Shown: positions 5,173 to 51,584 of the stretch, piece by piece
Position numbering within the stretch: the stretch's first letter is position 1
How the letters are laid out: the number at the start of each line of letters is the position of its first letter
Assembly: GCF_016722765.1 (NCBI RefSeq)
Contig: NZ_JAEQND010000008.1
Span: 1-64,000, forward strand
Reading direction: 5' to 3'
DNA length: 64,000 bases
Source of the DNA: Ramlibacter alkalitolerans
GTDB taxonomy: Bacteria > Pseudomonadota > Gammaproteobacteria > Burkholderiales > Burkholderiaceae_C
The notes under the pieces: model-generated
Seen by the model: only the letters and a program-made list of their open reading frames with translations
What the model was told of the DNA's origin: nothing
Database searches by the model: none
Program-made: the position numbers and the translations under genes

Positions 5173-6165
5173 GTGACAACGAGCAGCTCCCGCTTGGGCG
5201 CGGATTTGGCCGCAGCCAAGGCGGCATGGATGGCCAGCGAGTGGCGCGCCGCATACGCCGGCGCAAAAGGCGCTCTTACAGAAGCCTTGGCGGTGCGCCA
5301 TCCTCAATTTCAGGCCGAGGCCAGTTCGCTGCTCGCGCAAGTGCTGACTCTCCAGTCCCAGTTCCGCCTCGCCGCGCAGCTCGCCAACCGAGCACGCGCC
5401 GCTTTCGCGGAACTGCAGGACCCCGCCGGTGCCGCGGACGCCATGCTCACATTGAGCTACGTCGAGAGCGCGCTCGGGCACGCCGAATCCGCCGCTGCCG
5501 CTGCAGCACAAGTCAGCGCGGGCAACTGCACGGTTCAGCGGCGCGAGGCGAGTGGACTGACGTACCGTGGGATTGCCGCTATCTGGCGAGGTGATTACGG
5601 TACCGCCCGCGGCGTTCTCGATAGCGCTTGCGAGCTCTCACCGCAAGAAGTCGGGTCGGGCGCGGCGGCCTTTCAGCCTTTGGTTAACGCGATATTCGCG
5701 GAGGTGCTCCGAAGCGCGGAACTTCGCATGAAGGGGAACCGCTCTGAACTTACGCAACTTGAAGCCCTGCTTGCCGAGGCATGGAAGCTGGCCAAGACAG
5801 GCTCGACGAAATGTCTCGTGAGCATTTCGGCGCTCCCAGGCATGTTTCTCCTGTGCTTCTCCACTTGCTTTTACGCGAGCAGATCCGGACAGAGCGCGCG
5901 TGCGGACAAGTACTACCTGAAGTGCCTGGAGCACGCGTCCAGGCTTCCTGAGACCAGCTGGATGCAGGCCTTGGTGTTGTGGGCCAGGCTGGAGCGCAGC
6001 ATCGCCGCGCGGGAGGTTCACGAGGCTGTCGTTTCCGCCGGTCGCATGCTGGTCGTGGCCGGAGCGGGCGAGCATGAACCAATGAAGGCACTGGCCAGGC
6101 GCCTCGGCTCCGAGGCGCAGAACTATCTCGGAAGCGCTGCCTCGCCCTACGCGACTTACATGTAG
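5173..6165 (+). CDS. TPR-like helical-repeat protein of unknown function
   Basis: The 330-residue product is rich in alanine and short paired helices, for example residues 40-110 (AEASSLLAQVLTLQSQF, then AADAMLTLSYVESALGHAES), which resembles MalT-type tetratricopeptide repeats. The GTG at 5173 follows a GGAAGGAA ribosome binding site and is preferred to the ATG at 5125. I see no signal peptide, kinase, cyclase or DNA-binding domain. In many proteobacteria similar N-terminal repeats precede a GGDEF output domain, so this could be a truncated sensor, but that is inference. It stands alone between the CoA-transferase group and the catabolic operon on the other strand. Confidence 0.6.
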   Translation: MTTSSSRLGADLAAAKAAWMASEWRAAYAGAKGALTEALAVRHPQFQAEASSLLAQVLTLQSQFRLAAQLANRARAAFAELQDPAGAADAMLTLSYVESALGHAESAAAAAAQVSAGNCTVQRREASGLTYRGIAAIWRGDYGTARGVLDSACELSPQEVGSGAAAFQPLVNAIFAEVLRSAELRMKGNRSELTQLEALLAEAWKLAKTGSTKCLVSISALPGMFLLCFSTCFYASRSGQSARADKYYLKCLEHASRLPETSWMQALVLWARLERSIAAREVHEAVVSAGRMLVVAGAGEHEPMKALARRLGSEAQNYLGSAASPYATYM

Positions 6166-6498
6166 GGCGTCTCAGCCCGACGGCGCCGCGAAGAGGCTAG
6201 CAGTCCACGTAGAAGCGCCAATCCAGGAGATCAGCAGGAGCTCATCTCCGCTGCTCCGCCGGAGCAGGAAACCTTCGAAGTCGCTACTGAGGAGGATGCC
6301 GCTACGCGGACAGATGATGCCGGCAGCAGCAGTTACGACCATTCCGAACGGGACGCAGGAAGCTTCACGTGCTTGCCTGCATCGCGGCCGCAAAACGTTC
6401 TCCGAACTCCCGACGAAGCACCTTGCGCAGTTTCGCTGCCTCGTGCCTCCTCTTCTCCTCGGGTGAACGGCCGCAAGGACGGGACTTACCGACCGGGT
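6166..6498. other. Intergenic region, possible coding remnants
   Basis: This 333-bp gap separates two convergent transcription units. On the minus strand a short frame near 6370-6490 encodes a basic helical stretch containing EEKRRHEAAKLRKVLRREFG, which looks more protein-like than random, and another short minus frame runs to 6172. I recognise neither, and no ribosome binding site is clear. I see no strong terminator. Confidence 0.35.
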
Positions 6499-45795: not shown

Positions 45796-46160
45796 GCAAG
45801 GCCGGCACCCAGATCCTGACGCTCGAAGGCCTGCGCTTCGACGCCAACCTCGGCATCCTGGAACACGAGAAGGAAGCGCCGCAGCCGATCCTGGTCGACG
45901 CCGAATTGAACCTCGGCACCCAGCCGCTGCTGCCGCGCGACGACGACATCACCCACGTGCTCGATTACCGCAAGGTGCGCCGCATCATCATCGAGGAATG
46001 CACCGCGGTGCACGTCAACCTGCTCGAGACGCTGATCGGCAAGCTCGCGCACCGCCTGATGCAGCTTCCCGGCGTGCTGGGCGTGCGGGTGCGCATCGTC
46101 AAGCTGCGGATCTTCGAGGATTGCGAAGTGGCGATCCGGGTCGAGACGGGCCTGTGGTGA
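45792..46160 (+). CDS. folB: Dihydroneopterin aldolase
   Basis: The 122-residue protein is a FolB-type T-fold enzyme that makes 6-hydroxymethyl-dihydropterin for folate synthesis. It has LEGLRFDANLGILEHEKEA, the segment THVLDYRKVRRIIIEECTA, and ETLIGKLAHRL near residue 77, which carries the catalytic residues. The ATG overlaps the SDR stop. It is followed by a degenerate copy of the REP-like repeat. Confidence 0.92.
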   Translation: MSKAGTQILTLEGLRFDANLGILEHEKEAPQPILVDAELNLGTQPLLPRDDDITHVLDYRKVRRIIIEECTAVHVNLLETLIGKLAHRLMQLPGVLGVRVRIVKLRIFEDCEVAIRVETGLW

Positions 46161-46170
46161 CGGCCCGCCC

Positions 46171-46210
46171 GTAGCCTGGCGCTGAGTGCGCGCCGGCGCC
46201 GAACCCCCGC
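46171..46210. repeat. Degenerate REP-like repeat copy
   Basis: This stretch begins GTAGCCTGGCGCTGAGTGCG and ends GCCGAACCCCCGC, a diverged single copy of the element found at 33.2, 53.5, 54.7 and 58.0 kb. It lies just after folB and before the SHP operon. Confidence 0.5.
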
Positions 46211-46291
46211 ATGCCCGCGCTCCCGCGACCTTGACGGCGCGCAAGGTTTCCTGCCGGCACGCGACTAGCATGGTCCGAAGCCCGGCCGCCC

Positions 46292-46308
46292 GTTAAGAAA
46301 ACGCTAAG
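46292..46308 (+). promoter_or_regulatory. Direct-repeat site, candidate response-regulator operator
   Basis: GTTAAG (46292-46297) and GCTAAG (46303-46308) are in the same orientation with start points 11 bp apart. This matches the direct-repeat sites bound by PmrA/QseB-type OmpR-family regulators (TTAA repeats about 11 bp apart). It lies 39 bp before the SHP start codon; the operon encodes such a regulator as its fourth gene, so autoregulation is likely. Confidence 0.55.
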
Positions 46309-46347
46309 CGCCCCTGCCCATCATCGGCCCTGCTTCAGGAGTTGCCG

Positions 46348-46752
46348 ATGACACACACGATCACCATGCGCATGTCCCTTTGCGCCCTGCTGTTCGCCGC
46401 GAGCCTGCCCGCCGCGCGCGCAGCCACCCCTTCCGAGCTGGCCGCCGGCTACGCGGCGCAGGCCGGAACGGCGCCCGTCGCCAGCCGCGGCGAGCAGTTC
46501 TTCACCTCCCGCCATGGCCAGGAATGGAGCTGCGCCTCCTGCCACGGCACGCCGCCGACGGGCACCGGCAAGCACGCCGCCACCGGCAAGGCGATCGGCC
46601 CGCTGGCCCCGGCGTTCAACGCGCGCCGCTTCACCGATCCGGCCAAGGCGGACAAATGGTTCCGCCGCAACTGCAACGACGTGGTCGGCCGCGAATGCAC
46701 CGCCGGCGAGAAGGCCGACGTGATCGCGTGGCTGCTGAGCCTCGGGAAGTGA
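46348..46752 (+). CDS. Sphaeroides heme protein (SHP)-type cytochrome c, DUF1924
   Basis: The 134-residue exported protein has a signal peptide ending near ARA and one heme c site, CASCH (Cys62, Cys65, His66). The C-terminal motif RRNCNDVVGRECTAGEKADV matches the oxygen-binding SHP of Rhodobacter sphaeroides, in which an asparagine is the second, displaceable heme ligand; Asn110 is the counterpart here. The flanking cysteines can form the known disulfide. ATG 46348 follows a CAGGAG site. Its role is unknown, but it is encoded with a diheme cytochrome and a cytochrome b561-type protein that may reduce it. Confidence 0.87.
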   Translation: MTHTITMRMSLCALLFAASLPAARAATPSELAAGYAAQAGTAPVASRGEQFFTSRHGQEWSCASCHGTPPTGTGKHAATGKAIGPLAPAFNARRFTDPAKADKWFRRNCNDVVGRECTAGEKADVIAWLLSLGK

Positions 46753-46759
46753 GGACGCG

Positions 46760-47215
46760 ATGCGCACACGCTTGTCCCTCCTCGCGCTCTCGCTGCTCGC
46801 CGCGCCCTTCGCGCAGGCAGACGGCTACCGCGCCGCCCCGGCGCTGCCCCAATACGTGCAGGAATGCTCCACCTGCCACATCGCCTATCCGCTGGGCGCG
46901 CTGCCGAATGCGTCCTGGCAGCGCCTGCTGCGCACGCTGCCACGGCATTTCGGCAGCGACGCATCGGTCGATCCCGCCACGCTGAAGGCGATTTCCACCT
47001 GGGTCGATGCCCATCCGCAGACCTGGAAGCGCGTCGGCGAAGCACCGCCCGAGGACCGCATCACCCGCTCCGCCTGGTTCGAGCGCAAGCACCGCGAGGT
47101 GGCACCCGCCACCTGGAAGCTCGCTGCCGTCCGCAGCCCCTCGAACTGCGCCGCCTGCCATCCGCGCGCCGAAGAAGGAGATTTCGATGAACACCGCGTC
47201 CGCATCCCCCGCTGA
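46760..47215 (+). CDS. Diheme cytochrome c (DHC)
   Basis: The 151-residue protein has a signal peptide (MRTRLSLLALSLLAAPFAQA) and two heme c sites, CSTCH at residues 36-40 and CAACH at residues 130-134. The layout fits the DHC family, the electron donor associated with SHP. It begins 7 bp after SHP and overlaps the cytochrome b gene by 29 bp. It is expected to relay electrons in the periplasm from the membrane cytochrome b to SHP. Confidence 0.9.
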   Translation: MRTRLSLLALSLLAAPFAQADGYRAAPALPQYVQECSTCHIAYPLGALPNASWQRLLRTLPRHFGSDASVDPATLKAISTWVDAHPQTWKRVGEAPPEDRITRSAWFERKHREVAPATWKLAAVRSPSNCAACHPRAEEGDFDEHRVRIPR

Positions 47216-47894
47216 ACGCCCCACGCGCACCCTGGTCTGGGATGCGCCGGTGCGCGTCTTCCACTGGCTGATGGTGGCGAGCTTCGCCGTCGCCTGGCTC
47301 ACTGCGGAGAGCGAGCGCTGGCAGCTGGCCCACGTGACGGCCGGCTACACCATGGCCGGCCTGGTCGCCTTCCGCGTGGTGTGGGGCCTGGTCGGCACCC
47401 GCTACGCGCGCTTCACCGCCTTCGTCCGCAGCCCGTGGACGGCGGTGGACTACCTGATGGTCATGCTCTTGGAGCGGCGGCCGCAGCGCCACACCGGCCA
47501 CAACCCTGCCGGCGGGCTCGCGATCCTGGCCCTGCTGACCCTGGCCGCACTGACCGCTGCCAGCGGGTGGGCGAACTACAACGAGCTCGCGGGCCACTGG
47601 ATGGAGGACGTGCACGAGGTGCTGGCCAACACGATGCTCGGTCTGGTGGCGCTGCACGTCGTCGCCGTCGTGGCCAGCAGCGCGCTGCACCGCGAAAACC
47701 TGGTGGGCGCGATGATCCACGGCCGCAAGCCGGTGCCGCGCGCCCAGGGCATCCGCAGTCCGTGGCGCAGCGTGGCGGCGCTGCTGCTGGCCGCCGTGCT
47801 CGCCTTTTGGTGGCTGCAGTGGGAGTCCGCGCCGCAGCAGCCGCAGCCGCAGCAGGAGCGGGCGGCGCATCGGCACAAGCACCAGGGCCACTGA
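47187..47894 (+). CDS. Cytochrome b561-type membrane protein
   Basis: The 235-residue protein starts with the typical VWDAPVRVFHWLMVASFAVAW, where the histidine before the first span is a heme b ligand, and has three further hydrophobic segments with GHWMEDVHEVLANTMLGLV and ALHVVAVVASSALHREN providing further histidines. The C-terminus is a Gln/Pro/His tail. It would oxidise quinol or exchange electrons with a periplasmic donor. ATG 47187 lies inside the end of DHC. Confidence 0.9.
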   Translation: MNTASASPAERPTRTLVWDAPVRVFHWLMVASFAVAWLTAESERWQLAHVTAGYTMAGLVAFRVVWGLVGTRYARFTAFVRSPWTAVDYLMVMLLERRPQRHTGHNPAGGLAILALLTLAALTAASGWANYNELAGHWMEDVHEVLANTMLGLVALHVVAVVASSALHRENLVGAMIHGRKPVPRAQGIRSPWRSVAALLLAAVLAFWWLQWESAPQQPQPQQERAAHRHKHQGH

Positions 47895-47902
47895 AGGCGT
47901 CC

Positions 47903-48574
47903 ATGCGCATCCTGCTGGCCGAAGACGATCCGCTGCTGGGCGACGGCCTGCAATCGGGCCTGCGCCAGCTCGGTTTCCAGGTCGACTGGGTGCGCAGCGG
48001 CGACGCTGCCGAACGCGAGCTGTGCGCCGGCGTGCATGCGGCGGCGGTGCTGGACCTGGGCCTGCCGCGCAAGGACGGCCTCGCGGTGCTGGCCGCCGCC
48101 CGCGCCCACGGCGTCCACGTGCCCGTGCTGGTGCTGACGGCGCGCGACGCCATCCCGGACCGCATCCGCGGGCTCGATGCCGGCGCCGACGACTACGTGC
48201 TCAAGCCGGTGGACCTGCACGAACTGGCCGCCCGGCTGCGCGCCCTGGTGCGCCGCTCCCACGGCCAGCCGCAGGAAGTGCTGCGCGCGCAGGACGTGGA
48301 GCTGGACCCCGCCGCGCGCACGGTGCGCAAGGCGGGCCACCTGCTGCAGCTGCCCACCCGCGAGTTCGACCTGCTGCACGCGCTGATGCTCAATGCGGGC
48401 CGGGTGCTCACGCGCGAGCAGCTCGAACAGCACCTCTATAGCTGGGGCCGCGAAGTCGAGAGCAATGCGGTGGAGGTGCACATCCATCACCTGCGCCGCA
48501 AGCTGGGCGGCGCCTTGATCCACACCGTGCGGGGCGTCGGCTACACGCTGCTGCGGGAGGCGGCCGCGTGTTGA
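47903..48574 (+). CDS. OmpR-family response regulator (QseB/PmrA-like)
   Basis: The 223-residue regulator has a receiver domain with Asp8/Asp9, phospho-acceptor Asp51 (AVLDLGLPRKDG) and Lys101 (DDYVLKPVDL), and a C-terminal winged helix ending EVHIHHLRRKLGG and TVRGVGYTLLRE. It follows the cytochrome genes by 8 bp and overlaps the kinase start by 7 bp. The direct repeat at 46292-46308 is the candidate site through which it controls the operon. Confidence 0.93.
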   Translation: MRILLAEDDPLLGDGLQSGLRQLGFQVDWVRSGDAAERELCAGVHAAAVLDLGLPRKDGLAVLAAARAHGVHVPVLVLTARDAIPDRIRGLDAGADDYVLKPVDLHELAARLRALVRRSHGQPQEVLRAQDVELDPAARTVRKAGHLLQLPTREFDLLHALMLNAGRVLTREQLEQHLYSWGREVESNAVEVHIHHLRRKLGGALIHTVRGVGYTLLREAAAC

Positions 48575-49932
48575 GGCCCACGTCCCTGCGCGGACGCCTG
48601 CTGCTGATGGTGCTCGGCGCCTCGCTGGCCGTCTGGCTGGCGGCCGCGGCCGCCACCTGGGTCGATGCGCGCCACGAGCTGGATGAACTGCTCGATGGCC
48701 ACCTGGCGCAGGCGGCGGCGCTGCTGGCCGCGCGCCAGGTGCGCAAGTTCAAGGACGACGAGCACGTCGACGCCCCGAGCCTGCACCGCTACGGGCCGCG
48801 CGTCACCTTCCAGGTGTTCCACGAAGGCAAGCTGGCGCTGCGCTCCCCGTCCGCGCCCGACGAACCCCTGGTGGGCGACGGCGAAGCACCGGTCTCGGGC
48901 TTCCATACCGTGGCGATCGGCGACGAGGACTGGCGCGTGTTCGCCACCCGCGGGGCGAAGAACGACGTCCAGGTCTTCGTGGCCGAACAGGTCGCATCGC
49001 GCGACGCCATCCTGTACGCGGTGCTGCGCAGCACCCTGTGGCCCATGCTGCTGGCCGTGCCGGTGCTGCTGCTGGCCGGCTGGTGGGCGGTCGCGCGGGG
49101 CGTGCGTCCGCTGCGCACCGTGGGCGCGGCGCTGGCGCACCGGCCGGCGGAAGACCTGCGCCCCGTGCACGCCCCCGATGCGCCGGACGAGATGCGCCCG
49201 CTGCTCGATGCGCTGAACGGCCTCTTCGGGCGCATCGCGCAGCTGCTGGAACGCGAGCGGCGCTTCACCGGCGACGCCGCGCACGAACTGCGCACGCCGA
49301 TCGCGGCGATCCGGGCGCAGGCGCAGGTGGCGCTGGGCGCCAGCGCGGAGCCGCAGCGGCGCCAGGCGCTGGAACGCACGCTGGCCGGCTGCGACCGCGC
49401 TTCCCGCGTGCTGGAGCAGTTGCTGATGCTGTCGGGGCTGGAAGCGGAAGCACCGCGCAGCCGCGAGCCGGTCGACCTGTCCGCGATCGCGCAGGCTGCC
49501 GTGGCGGACCTGGCCCTGGCCGGCATCGCCCGCCAGCAGAACGTGAGCCTCGCAGCCGGTGCTGGCGCCATCGTCGATGGCAACGAGGCCCTGCTGGCCG
49601 CGCTGTGTCGCAACCTGGTGGACAACGCGATCCGCTACAGCCCGCCGGGTGCGCGCATCGAGGTGCGGGTGCGCCGCAACGCCGACGGCGTCCTGCTGGC
49701 CGTGGAAGACAGCGGCCGCGGGATGAGCGACGAAGACCTGCAGCGGCTGGGCCAGCGCTTCTTCCGCGCCGAGGGCAGCGAGGCGCCGGGCAGCGGGCTG
49801 GGATGGTCCATCGTGCAGCGCATCGCGGCCGCCCACGGCGCCACCGTGCAGGCCCGCCGTTCGCCCCGGCTGGGAGGGCTGTGCGTGGAAGTCTCCTTTC
49901 CCGGCGCGCCGCAACCCGCAATGCGAAAATAG
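48568..49932 (+). CDS. Sensor histidine kinase (QseC-like)
   Basis: The 454-residue kinase has two membrane spans (residues about 9-31 and 155-176) bracketing a periplasmic sensor, a HAMP-like linker ([20 protein letters not shown]), the phospho-acceptor His239 in [16 protein letters not shown] and an ATPase domain with [13 protein letters not shown] and [13 protein letters not shown]. It begins with GTG 48568. Its signal could be the redox or gas state sensed together with the heme proteins of the same operon. Confidence 0.92.
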
Positions 49933-49936
49933 CGGC

Positions 49937-50854
49937 ATGAGTGCCGTCTGGATCGACAACGACCCCTCCCCCGCCCCCGCCGCGAAGATCGAGCGCGAGA
50001 ACCACAAGCTGGAAAAGCGCCTGTGCCGCCTGGTCGGCCAGGCCATAGGCGACTACGCCATGATCGTGCCGGGCGACAAGGTGATGGTCTGCCTGTCGGG
50101 CGGCAAGGACAGCTACGCCCTGCTGGACATCCTGCTGAAGCTGCAGCGGCGCGCGCCGGTCGACTTCGGGATCGTGGCCGTCAACCTGGACCAGAAGCAG
50201 CCCGGATTCCCGGCGCACATCCTGCCGCAGTACCTGGAAAGCCTGGGCGTGCCCTTCCGCATCGAGGAGCAGGACACCTATTCCATCGTCAAGGACAAGA
50301 TTCCCGAGGGCAAGACGATGTGCAGCCTGTGCAGCCGGCTGCGCCGCGGCATCCTGTACCGGGTGGCGGGCGAACTGGGCGCGACGAAGATCGCGCTGGG
50401 CCACCACCGCGACGACCTGCTGCAGACGCTGTTGCTCAACATGTTCTTCGGCGGCAAGCTCAAGGGCATGCCGCCCAAGCTGCAAAGCGACGACGGCCGC
50501 AACGTCGTCATCCGCCCGCTGGCCTACGTGAACGAGAAGGACCTGGTGCGCTGGGCCGAAGTGCGCCAGTTCCCGATCATTCCCTGCACCCTGTGCGGCA
50601 GCCAGGAGAACCTGCAACGCCGGCAGGTGGGCGACATGCTGCGCGACTGGGACCGGCGCTTTCCCGGGCGGCTGGACAACATGCTCCACGCCCTGCAGAA
50701 CGTGGTGCCTTCGCACCTGGCCGACCCGGTCCTGCACGACTTCCGCAACCTGGCGGCCACCGGCGTGCCGAGCGAGGATGGCGACAAGGCCTTCGACCAC
50801 GAGGAACTCCCGGTGGCGGAGGCCCTGCCCGCCCTGCAGGTCATCAAGCTCTGA
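49937..50854 (+). CDS. ttcA: tRNA 2-thiocytidine-32 synthetase
   Basis: TtcA thiolates cytidine 32 of certain tRNAs and needs ATP and an iron-sulfur cluster. The 305-residue protein has the PP-loop SGGKDS at residues 54-59, the first CxxC at Cys129/Cys132 ([12 protein letters not shown]) and Cys217/Cys220 ([10 protein letters not shown]). All cluster-binding cysteines are present. It begins 4 bp after the kinase gene, but its role is unrelated. Confidence 0.96.
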
Positions 50855-50963
50855 CGCCGCGCCGGCGCGGCGCCGTCCTGCATGTAAACGCGCCCCACCG
50901 GCGGGGGCAACTCTCTACCATTTGGCAGAGATGCGGGGCGCCTGCGCCTCCTTCGGAGGTCCC

Positions 50964-51584
50964 ATGTCGAGCTTGAAGAGATTCCTGCATTTCGGCCTGC
51001 TGGCCGCCAGCGCGCTGCTGCTGTCCGGCTGCGCATCCACCTACCTGCTGGACAACCAGGTCCAGTCCTTTTCCCAGCTGGCCGCGATGCCGGCGCCGGC
51101 GACGTACCGGTTCGAGCGCTCGCTCTCGCAGCAGGTCGATCCGGCGCAGCAGGCGCTGGAGGCGCTGGCCGATCCCGCCTTGTACAAGGCCGGCTTCCGT
51201 CGCGACGACGCCGCGCCGCGCTACAGCGTGCAGGTCGGCGCGCGCACCGAGCGCAGGCTCTCGCCCTATGCGGACCCGTACTGGGGCCCCTGGGGCTGGG
51301 GCGGCGGCTGGGGCCTGGGCTTCGGCGGCCGGCACTTCGGCCTGGGCCTGGGCGGCCCGTGGCCGAACACGGACTCCTATTGGTTCCACCGCGAAGTGAC
51401 GGTGCTGGTGCGCGAGCTGGCGAGCAATCGCGTGGTCTACGAGACGCACGCGATCAACGACGGGCCCTGGCTCGACAACCGCTCGGTGCTGCCGGCGATG
51501 TTCGAGGCCGCCTTGCAGGGCTTCCCGAATCCGCCGCAAGGCCCGCGCCGCGTCGACATCCAGGTCGGTGCGGCCGCGAACTGA
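50964..51584 (+). CDS. DUF4136 family lipoprotein
   Basis: The 206-residue protein has a lipoprotein signal ending at LLSGC (Cys23). The mature part has PAPATYRFERSLSQ, a Trp/Gly-rich segment with PYWGPWGWGGGWGLGFGG and a beta-rich C-terminus with RRVDIQVGAA, in line with DUF4136. Function is unknown; outer-membrane anchoring is likely. It is preceded by a 109-bp gap after ttcA. Confidence 0.83.
   Translation: MSSLKRFLHFGLLAASALLLSGCASTYLLDNQVQSFSQLAAMPAPATYRFERSLSQQVDPAQQALEALADPALYKAGFRRDDAAPRYSVQVGARTERRLSPYADPYWGPWGWGGGWGLGFGGRHFGLGLGGPWPNTDSYWFHREVTVLVRELASNRVVYETHAINDGPWLDNRSVLPAMFEAALQGFPNPPQGPRRVDIQVGAAAN

Follow-up and report, generated by a model that had tools for sequence, protein, structure and literature searches.

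What switches an operon of sphaeroides haem protein (SHP) on, and which regulator does the switching? The role of SHP, a c-type cytochrome that binds oxygen, is not settled, and the sensors linked to it are the best clue to what it does. We followed the question through one locus of Ramlibacter alkalitolerans, in a stretch of 64,000 nucleotides (contig NZ_JAEQND010000008.1, positions 1 to 64,000) called the window throughout, where five genes stand on the forward strand at 46348-49932 in the order SHP, dihaem cytochrome c (DHC), membrane cytochrome b, response regulator and sensor kinase. Meyer et al. 2010 (PMC2909971), who date the discovery of SHP to more than 24 years earlier, described operons in which SHP stands with DHC and cytochrome b, most of them linked to one of three sensor kinases. 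One of these kinases, SK2, is related to QseC and was found in 12 SHP operons, and another, SK1, accounts for 15 cases and bears SGVYWQ and RSRSLWD motifs (PMC2909971). Meyer et al. proposed that electrons pass from quinol through cytochrome b and DHC to SHP, and that the linked sensors regulate SHP; the regulation was inferred from gene linkage. The window locus is an SK2-type SHP operon, a kind known since 2010, and the central idea of an earlier, sequence-only reading of this DNA, that a sensor linked to SHP also controls it, is already present in that paper. With the operon type and the linkage published, the new result here is a predicted promoter switch specific to the regulator type, which turns mere gene linkage into a testable regulatory circuit.

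We read the operon as a self-contained inducible periplasmic electron chain, switched on together with its own regulator genes through the operator TTAAG-N6-CTAAG, and we put the probability of this reading at about three in four. In all likelihood the linked regulator acts as an activator of the entire operon and so of its own gene.

The promoter predicted before the SHP gene

The elements before the first gene are as follows.

46293..46308, forward strand: predicted operator TTAAG-N6-CTAAG, two head-to-tail half-sites with an 11-bp period (from conservation, spacing and a single genome copy)
46319..46324, forward strand: predicted -10 element CATCAT, 10 nt past the operator, with no -35 consensus (conserved A at +27 and T at +31)
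46338..46341, forward strand: likely ribosome binding site GGAG before the ATG at 46348 (from its sequence)

The operator was weighed against a sample of 238 SHP loci, consisting of the window, 16 genus loci, 80 named contigs, 84 order-level loci and 57 class-level loci. The named set holds the best 80 of 429 confirmed stretches and leans to close relatives; the order set holds 84 places of at least 117 bits, the window excluded, and the class set 57 of 61 listed places. Seventeen genus loci were fetched, and one of them (L036, genome G012), without an intact CxxCH frame, was dropped from all counts; its SHP frame is split over two frames, with box and kinase intact. For the window, genus, named and order sets, which together hold 181 loci, the scan covered 300 nt ahead of the SHP haem codon in 180; one locus at a contig edge (L065) was left out. 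A match to YTAAG-N6-YTAAG at 9 or more of the 10 letters counted as a box, and the expectation was taken from dinucleotide shuffles.

Where a QseB-type regulator lies downstream on the same strand, 111 of 124 loci carry the box, 70 of them perfectly, against 1.2 of 124 in shuffled DNA. Six duplicates occur among the 238 loci (L041, L042, L057, L086, L111, L225); once duplicates are removed, the box is present in 105 of 118 QseB-type SHP loci (64 perfect), and it is found in 63 of 64 loci of the named set alone and in 50 of 61 loci made nonredundant at 75% SHP identity. The enrichment is confined to the spacing N6, every other spacing from 0 to 12 giving at most 10 of 124, and elsewhere in the same loci only 39 of 8008 stretches of real DNA (0.5%) reach 9 letters. 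The G at 46292 agrees with the G or C favoured just before the box. A divergent QseB-type regulator goes with a perfect box in 5 of 6 loci, a divergent SK1-type regulator with a perfect box in 0 of 7 and with 9 or more letters in 1 of 7, while all 5 loci on contigs cut at the edge reach this level.

Counted from the start of the box, position +27 is A and position +31 is T in 92% each of 50 nonredundant box loci, and both letters occur together in 97 of 105 distinct box loci, so that the conserved -10 takes the form [T/C]ANNNT, 10 nt after the box and with no -35. Two head-to-tail half-sites with an 11-bp period, standing at a fixed distance from a -10 that lacks a -35, make a layout that fits a class II activator promoter of the OmpR/PhoB type. 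A scan of 46100-51200 for the sigma-70-type consensus returned no promoter and no forward-strand terminator-like site; because a promoter without a -35 is expected to be missed by such a scan, this null was counted neither for nor against the prediction. No operator of an SHP operon was found described in the openly licensed literature searched, where a report published elsewhere could be missed, and PMC2909971 names none, the only sites it mentions being for haem or substrate and the only promoter a possible divergent one in SK1 clusters.

This 5.7 Mb genome has a single exact copy of the box, before SHP, and among 299 genomes drawn from the family, of which four are Ramlibacter, it was found in this genome alone; the looser form YTAAG-N6-YTAAG has 3 copies in the genome and 6 in the control. 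Across 60 genomes of the genus, 15 sites lie within one mismatch of the box: 13 stand before SHP, one is in a scar in genome G046, and one, in G051, precedes a small secreted protein gene. The linked kinase (E <= 1e-70) is present in 15 of the 60 genomes, all of which also carry SHP, fourteen by an SHP match; in the fifteenth, G030, the evidence is a 3312-base contig with kinase, regulator, cytochrome b and DHC, and only the last codons of SHP at its edge. Four of 18 SHP genomes are without this kinase, two being SK1-type (G020, G058) and two breaking off at contig edges (G024, G035). G046 lacks all five genes between pgk- and pyk-like genes (names by eye; L264, G046:C141, about 6130-6310), and the scar there consists of 74 nt of promoter, ribosome binding site and start with 88% identity to G048, plus an inverted fragment of the kinase gene, 106 nt long. 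The kinase/regulator pair thus looks dedicated to the SHP operon, because a type-specific operator stands before SHP, its exact form has a single genome copy, and the kinase occurs in the genus only with SHP.

Some other sites and loci met in these scans may be recorded here. Six loci (L058, L087, L118, L196, L209, L260) combine a perfect box before SHP with the absence of a QseB-type regulator from the fetched stretch; it may be encoded elsewhere. At another (L030, G005:C158) the kinase match is interrupted by two internal stops, the box is missing and the 5' end of SHP seems to be replaced by other sequence; this is apparently a decayed operon. In Ramlibacter, CTAAG-N6-CTAAG sites (L127, L130, L137, L142, L148) lie before small secreted proteins, which we take to be DUF4148-like, suggesting another regulon with a related box, and TTAAG-N6-TTAAG lies directly 5' of PAP2-like phosphatase genes (name by eye) at L126 and L143.

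Operator letters and regulator type

SK1-type SHP operons carry TTCAG-N6-TTCAG in place of the YTAAG box. In the full sample of 238 loci, 17 of 38 SK1-type, 1 of 140 QseB-type and 9 of 60 regulator-less loci have a perfect TTCAG-N6-TTCAG within 5.2 kb; for a perfect YTAAG box the counts are 6 of 38, 98 of 140 and 20 of 60, respectively. The -10 keeps its distance, with T26 at 74%, A27 at 71% and T31 at 74% of 35 TTCAG sites. The SK1 typing was checked on the kinases: an SK1 motif like the RSRSLWD of Meyer et al. is present in 20 of 36 SK1-type loci with a kinase and in 0 of 137 QseB-type loci. Scanning only upstream of SHP proved misleading in the class set, where cytochrome b often comes first, and its upstream region was added.

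A typing of regulators by phmmer score was dropped, as it mixed in truncated or unlinked regulators (for example L189 and L078), and a table of regulator residue 195 was used instead (PmrA numbering, identical in the window protein). Among distinct loci with an aligned regulator, those with His195 comprise 116 with YTAAG, 0 with TTCAG, 4 ties and 17 with no clear box; those with another residue comprise 22 with TTCAG, 2 with YTAAG, 2 ties and 8 with no clear box, one locus having no usable sequence for the table. The covariation of box and residue is strong by Fisher's test (1e-23, uncorrected for ancestry). At class level the His195 loci have 6 YTAAG and 0 TTCAG boxes (n=11), and at order level the non-His loci have 3 TTCAG and 0 YTAAG (n=6); these subsets agree, and the contrast is therefore not purely a clade effect. 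Of two non-His loci in Ramlibacter, one is a tie and one has no box. In PmrA, the parts of PMC3973317 drawn on here name His193 and His195 as likely specificity determinants, and those of PMC4660055, on the crystal structure, assign base-specific contacts to Asn188, Asn196 and Arg210 and a hydrophobic one to His195.

On balance we favour a two-letter operator code, in which the SHP chain is coupled to one of two unrelated sensor/regulator modules and one base per half-site changes with the module (YTAAG for His195, TTCAG for most regulators without it) at a constant distance to the -10; the QseB-type module of Ramlibacter would then be a one-target circuit, kept or lost with SHP. If this code is true, the chain has been coupled to two or more sensors, both of which may be for metals, and the boxes would serve as direct reporters for finding their signals. 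Such base-for-residue covariation would be a natural specificity switch within the OmpR/PhoB family, testable by single substitutions, and the conserved operator with its -10 offers a concrete promoter for reporter screening of the signal.

The encoded proteins, the signal and the rival explanations

The sequence-only reading had placed SHP, a diheme partner, a membrane cytochrome b and a two-component pair within 46292-49932, and Pfam profiles confirm all five.

46348..46752, forward strand: SHP, of the DUF1924 family (PF09086 E 2.6e-37; 1dw0 E 1.8e-27; conservation)
46760..47215, forward strand: DHC, dihaem cytochrome c (PF09626 E 2.1e-33; 2fw5 E 2.4e-22)
47187..47894, forward strand: membrane cytochrome b561, Ni_hydr_CYTB (PF01292 E 1e-22; conservation)
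47903..48574, forward strand: OmpR/PhoB-family response regulator, QseB/PmrA-like (Response_reg and Trans_reg_C)
48568..49932, forward strand: sensor histidine kinase, QseC-like, with a GTG start (2CSK_N, HisKA and HATPase_c)

These genes are tightly packed, but the one run of overlapping genes first described is a true overlap at just two of the four junctions, DHC/cytochrome b (29 nt) and regulator/kinase (7 nt), with gaps of 7 nt between SHP and DHC and 8 nt between cytochrome b and regulator. A search for the five-gene order, as had been proposed, found it again in many Burkholderiales loci, and it is therefore not chance. The neighbours are a folB-like gene ending at 46160 and a ttcA-like gene starting at 49937, four bases past the kinase stop (both named by eye).

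The SHP scores 127.5 bits against a DUF1924 cut-off of 22.5; it has a signal-peptide-like N-terminus, the haem site CASCH (Cys62-His66, a CxxCH) and Asn108 as sixth ligand. The asparagine ligand of the RNCN motif, as first noticed from the letters, aligns with SHP of Rb. sphaeroides (1dw0), and all 140 SHPs of QseB-type loci have Asn108, Cys109, Cys117 and Trp104. In the full sample of 238, Asn is the sixth ligand at 235 loci and is replaced by His at the other 3, which have no regulator gene in the fetched stretch. The alignment with 1dw0 and PMC2909971 suggest that Cys109 and Cys117 form a disulfide. The Rb. sphaeroides protein binds O2, and a nitric oxide (NO) dioxygenase activity is reported for it (PMC2909971, citing others); by analogy, the reduced SHP of this locus may bind O2 or NO. 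In several order-level genomes (G602, G573, G659, G504, G428, G499, G565 and others) the DUF1924 match falls in two pieces, split at about profile positions 19-43, hinting at a divergent form of SHP with an insertion.

DHC has two CxxCH sites (36-40 and 130-134) with His63 and His111, and its four Cys and four His haem ligands are kept in 138 of 138 QseB-type loci. Cytochrome b561 scores 81.2 bits against a PF01292 cut-off of 30.1, and in QseB-type loci its His26 and His49 are kept in 134 of 135 and its His143 and His157 in 135 of 135; these four probably serve two haems b, and quinol oxidation is predicted.

The description of the last two genes as QseB/QseC-like holds loosely: QseB and QseC are the best NCBIfam models, and the sensor matches 2CSK_N (E 2.4e-8) and, by profile, the E. 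coli QseC sensor 2kse (E 1.7e-5), but both proteins fall below the equivalog cut-offs (QseB 251.1 against 345 bits, QseC 285.2 against 475), as they do for PmrA (231.5 against 330) and PmrB (185.6 against 314). The recognition helix of the regulator, NAVEVHIHHLRRKL, contains His193 and His195. Structure models reach a predicted local distance difference test score (pLDDT) of 83 for the whole kinase and 79 for the sensor alone; the sensor is modelled as a PAS/Cache-like fold (VIA Z up to 10.1, root-mean-square deviation 3.2 over 112 residues), which points to no particular ligand, and the sensor-alone model gave no Foldseek match at E <= 0.001. The sensor has no CxxCH haem motif. The RExxE motif marks the BqsS sensor, and none is present here (RE..E sought in kinase residues 28-150), a point of difference from BqsRS. 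In the sensor clade His73 is kept in 52 of 56 and His85 in 45 of 56, and neither is found at the aligned place in seven paralogues of the same genome; no metal or haem role is claimed for them.

The binding, activation and co-transcription that we propose, like the signal and substrate of this operon, would fit together as follows. The kinase would sense a periplasmic signal and phosphorylate the regulator, whose dimer would occupy the two half-sites of TTAAG-N6-CTAAG in head-to-tail arrangement, where a -35 would otherwise lie, and recruit RNA polymerase at the -10 ten bases downstream. All five genes would be transcribed, regulator and kinase included, which would amount to positive autoregulation. 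Electrons would then pass from quinol to the two-haem membrane cytochrome b, to DHC and to SHP, and reduced SHP would lose its Asn ligand and bind a small ligand such as O2 or NO; this electron-transfer half is taken from the protein families and PMC2909971, with the ligand residues checked here.

Several observations weigh against this reading. Of the 38 loci whose fetched stretch shows no QseB-type regulator, 18 have the box; the box therefore needs no linked regulator, and a strict one-to-one link is weakened. At up to 3 mismatches the genome has 4 sites against 10 in a reversed control, and the other three all have 3 mismatches, so only the exact site stands out. The same genome also has a paralogous kinase/regulator pair (contig C28; kinase 35% identical), and directly after its QseC-like kinase gene, before the next gene, stands a similar box, TTAAGCCTGTTCTAAG (C28, 244250-244265), with the -10 match CACATT. 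As the C28 regulator also has His195, the operator form is common within the family; cross-talk is possible and exclusivity is not established. The operator code is weakened by the 17 His195 and 8 non-His loci with no clear box and by the 6 ties. Moreover, the SHP tree (118 columns, 99 rows, 9 of 96 inner branches starred), which is too short to settle the number of regulator swaps, gives only 2 independent well-supported regulator switches, of which 1.6 on average agree with the box (p 0.5). With two countable switches and a nonsignificant sign test, the covariation is not established as free of shared ancestry. Much of this would suit a box bound mainly by another OmpR-family regulator, such as the QseB-like one of C28, while the linked pair acts elsewhere or only modulates, and in the portions of the sources used here BqsR and PmrA likewise read near-identical operators. 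We nevertheless consider this improbable, since the letter of the box tracks the linked regulator, YTAAG with QseB-type and TTCAG with SK1-type, and since the linked kinase is never without SHP in the 60 genus genomes, both being gone in G046. A generic promoter feature or AT-rich element, of a sort generally common near promoters, is a scarcely credible explanation of the repeat in view of the enrichment at N6 alone (111 of 124 against at most 10), the 0.5% background and the one exact copy in 5.7 Mb.

Within the reading of a self-inducing SHP circuit, the nature of the signal is a further matter. The sequence-only reading held that chain and control respond to one signal, such as O2, NO or quinol state; the pair does look dedicated to its operon, but nothing ties the sensor to any of the three. 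The O2 and NO chemistry of Rb. sphaeroides SHP and the quinol-linked type of the cytochrome b speak for such a signal, which we hold to be unlikely, as the sensor bears no haem motif and the sequence singles out none of them. A metal cation such as Fe(II) is a possible, if tentative, candidate: the kinase would group with iron-sensing relatives, and SHP would answer metal or metal-linked redox stress. The expression tables used from PMC11267869 show that Allochromatium vinosum on pyrite rather than sulfide raises Alvin_0022 (DUF1924) by log2 7.10, DHC (0023) by 5.54, cytochrome b561 (0021) by 5.13, the linked regulator (0025) by 4.15 and the kinase (0026) by 2.18, together with the CzcA-family, RND and adjoining FieF iron efflux genes (0013-0015 and 0019; log2 3.0-4.6). 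The SHP gene is the second most induced there and is not named SHP in those parts of the paper. This co-induction supports joint control of chain and regulator for an SK1-type kinase, the A. vinosum cluster being SK1-type (PMC2909971), and it is a hint towards metals rather than O2, NO or quinol, limited by that type and by pyrite altering the sulfur and redox supply besides iron. Several species have CzcD linked to their SHP operons (PMC2909971), and BqsRS, with the same operator form, responds to ferrous iron in what was drawn from PMC4682146. Acidic residues just past the first transmembrane segment of the sensor are conserved in its clade (Glu37 and Asp43 in 56 of 56, Asp33 and Glu40 in 51 of 56), but some are shared with kinase paralogues of the same genome, and the sensor is without RExxE. 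In the proposal of Meyer et al. (PMC2909971), the QseC-type sensor would detect a signal from a host or from quorum sensing (such as autoinducer 3, AI-3, or catecholamines), and SHP would inactivate it. Family membership (2CSK_N, 2kse) agrees with this, yet we find it very improbable, the kinase lying far under the NCBIfam QseC cut-off (285 against 475 bits) and many of the 80 named carriers being metagenome-assembled genomes or environmental isolates.

Comparison with known systems

The QseBC system supplies the best NCBIfam models, the 2CSK_N sensor type and the 2kse match, and the window pair differs from it in falling under both equivalog cut-offs. BqsRS (CarRS) of P. aeruginosa is alike in being an activator with the operator TTAAG-N6-TTAAG, one pentamer lying over the -35 in the promoter dissected in the parts of PMC4682146 used. 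It differs in having hundreds of predicted BqsR sites there, against one exact site here, and in the window a -35 at a 17-bp spacer would lie between the half-sites. PmrAB (BasRS) has half-sites CTTAAT/CCTAAG spaced by N5, head to tail and with the same 11-bp period, as given in the sections drawn from PMC3973317; the PmrA residues His193, His195 and Asn188 are conserved in the window regulator, whereas the window pair lies under the PmrA and PmrB cut-offs and its sensor is QseC-type. The SK1 SHP operon has the same electron chain and is likewise linked to a kinase and regulator, but with another kinase, the TTCAG-N6-TTCAG box and a regulator whose residue 195 is mostly not His; two Ramlibacter genomes (L029, L034) have an operon of this type. 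The SK2 SHP operon of PMC2909971, finally, has the same membership as the window operon, its single cluster holding SHP, DHC and cytochrome b together with a response regulator and a QseC-related kinase.

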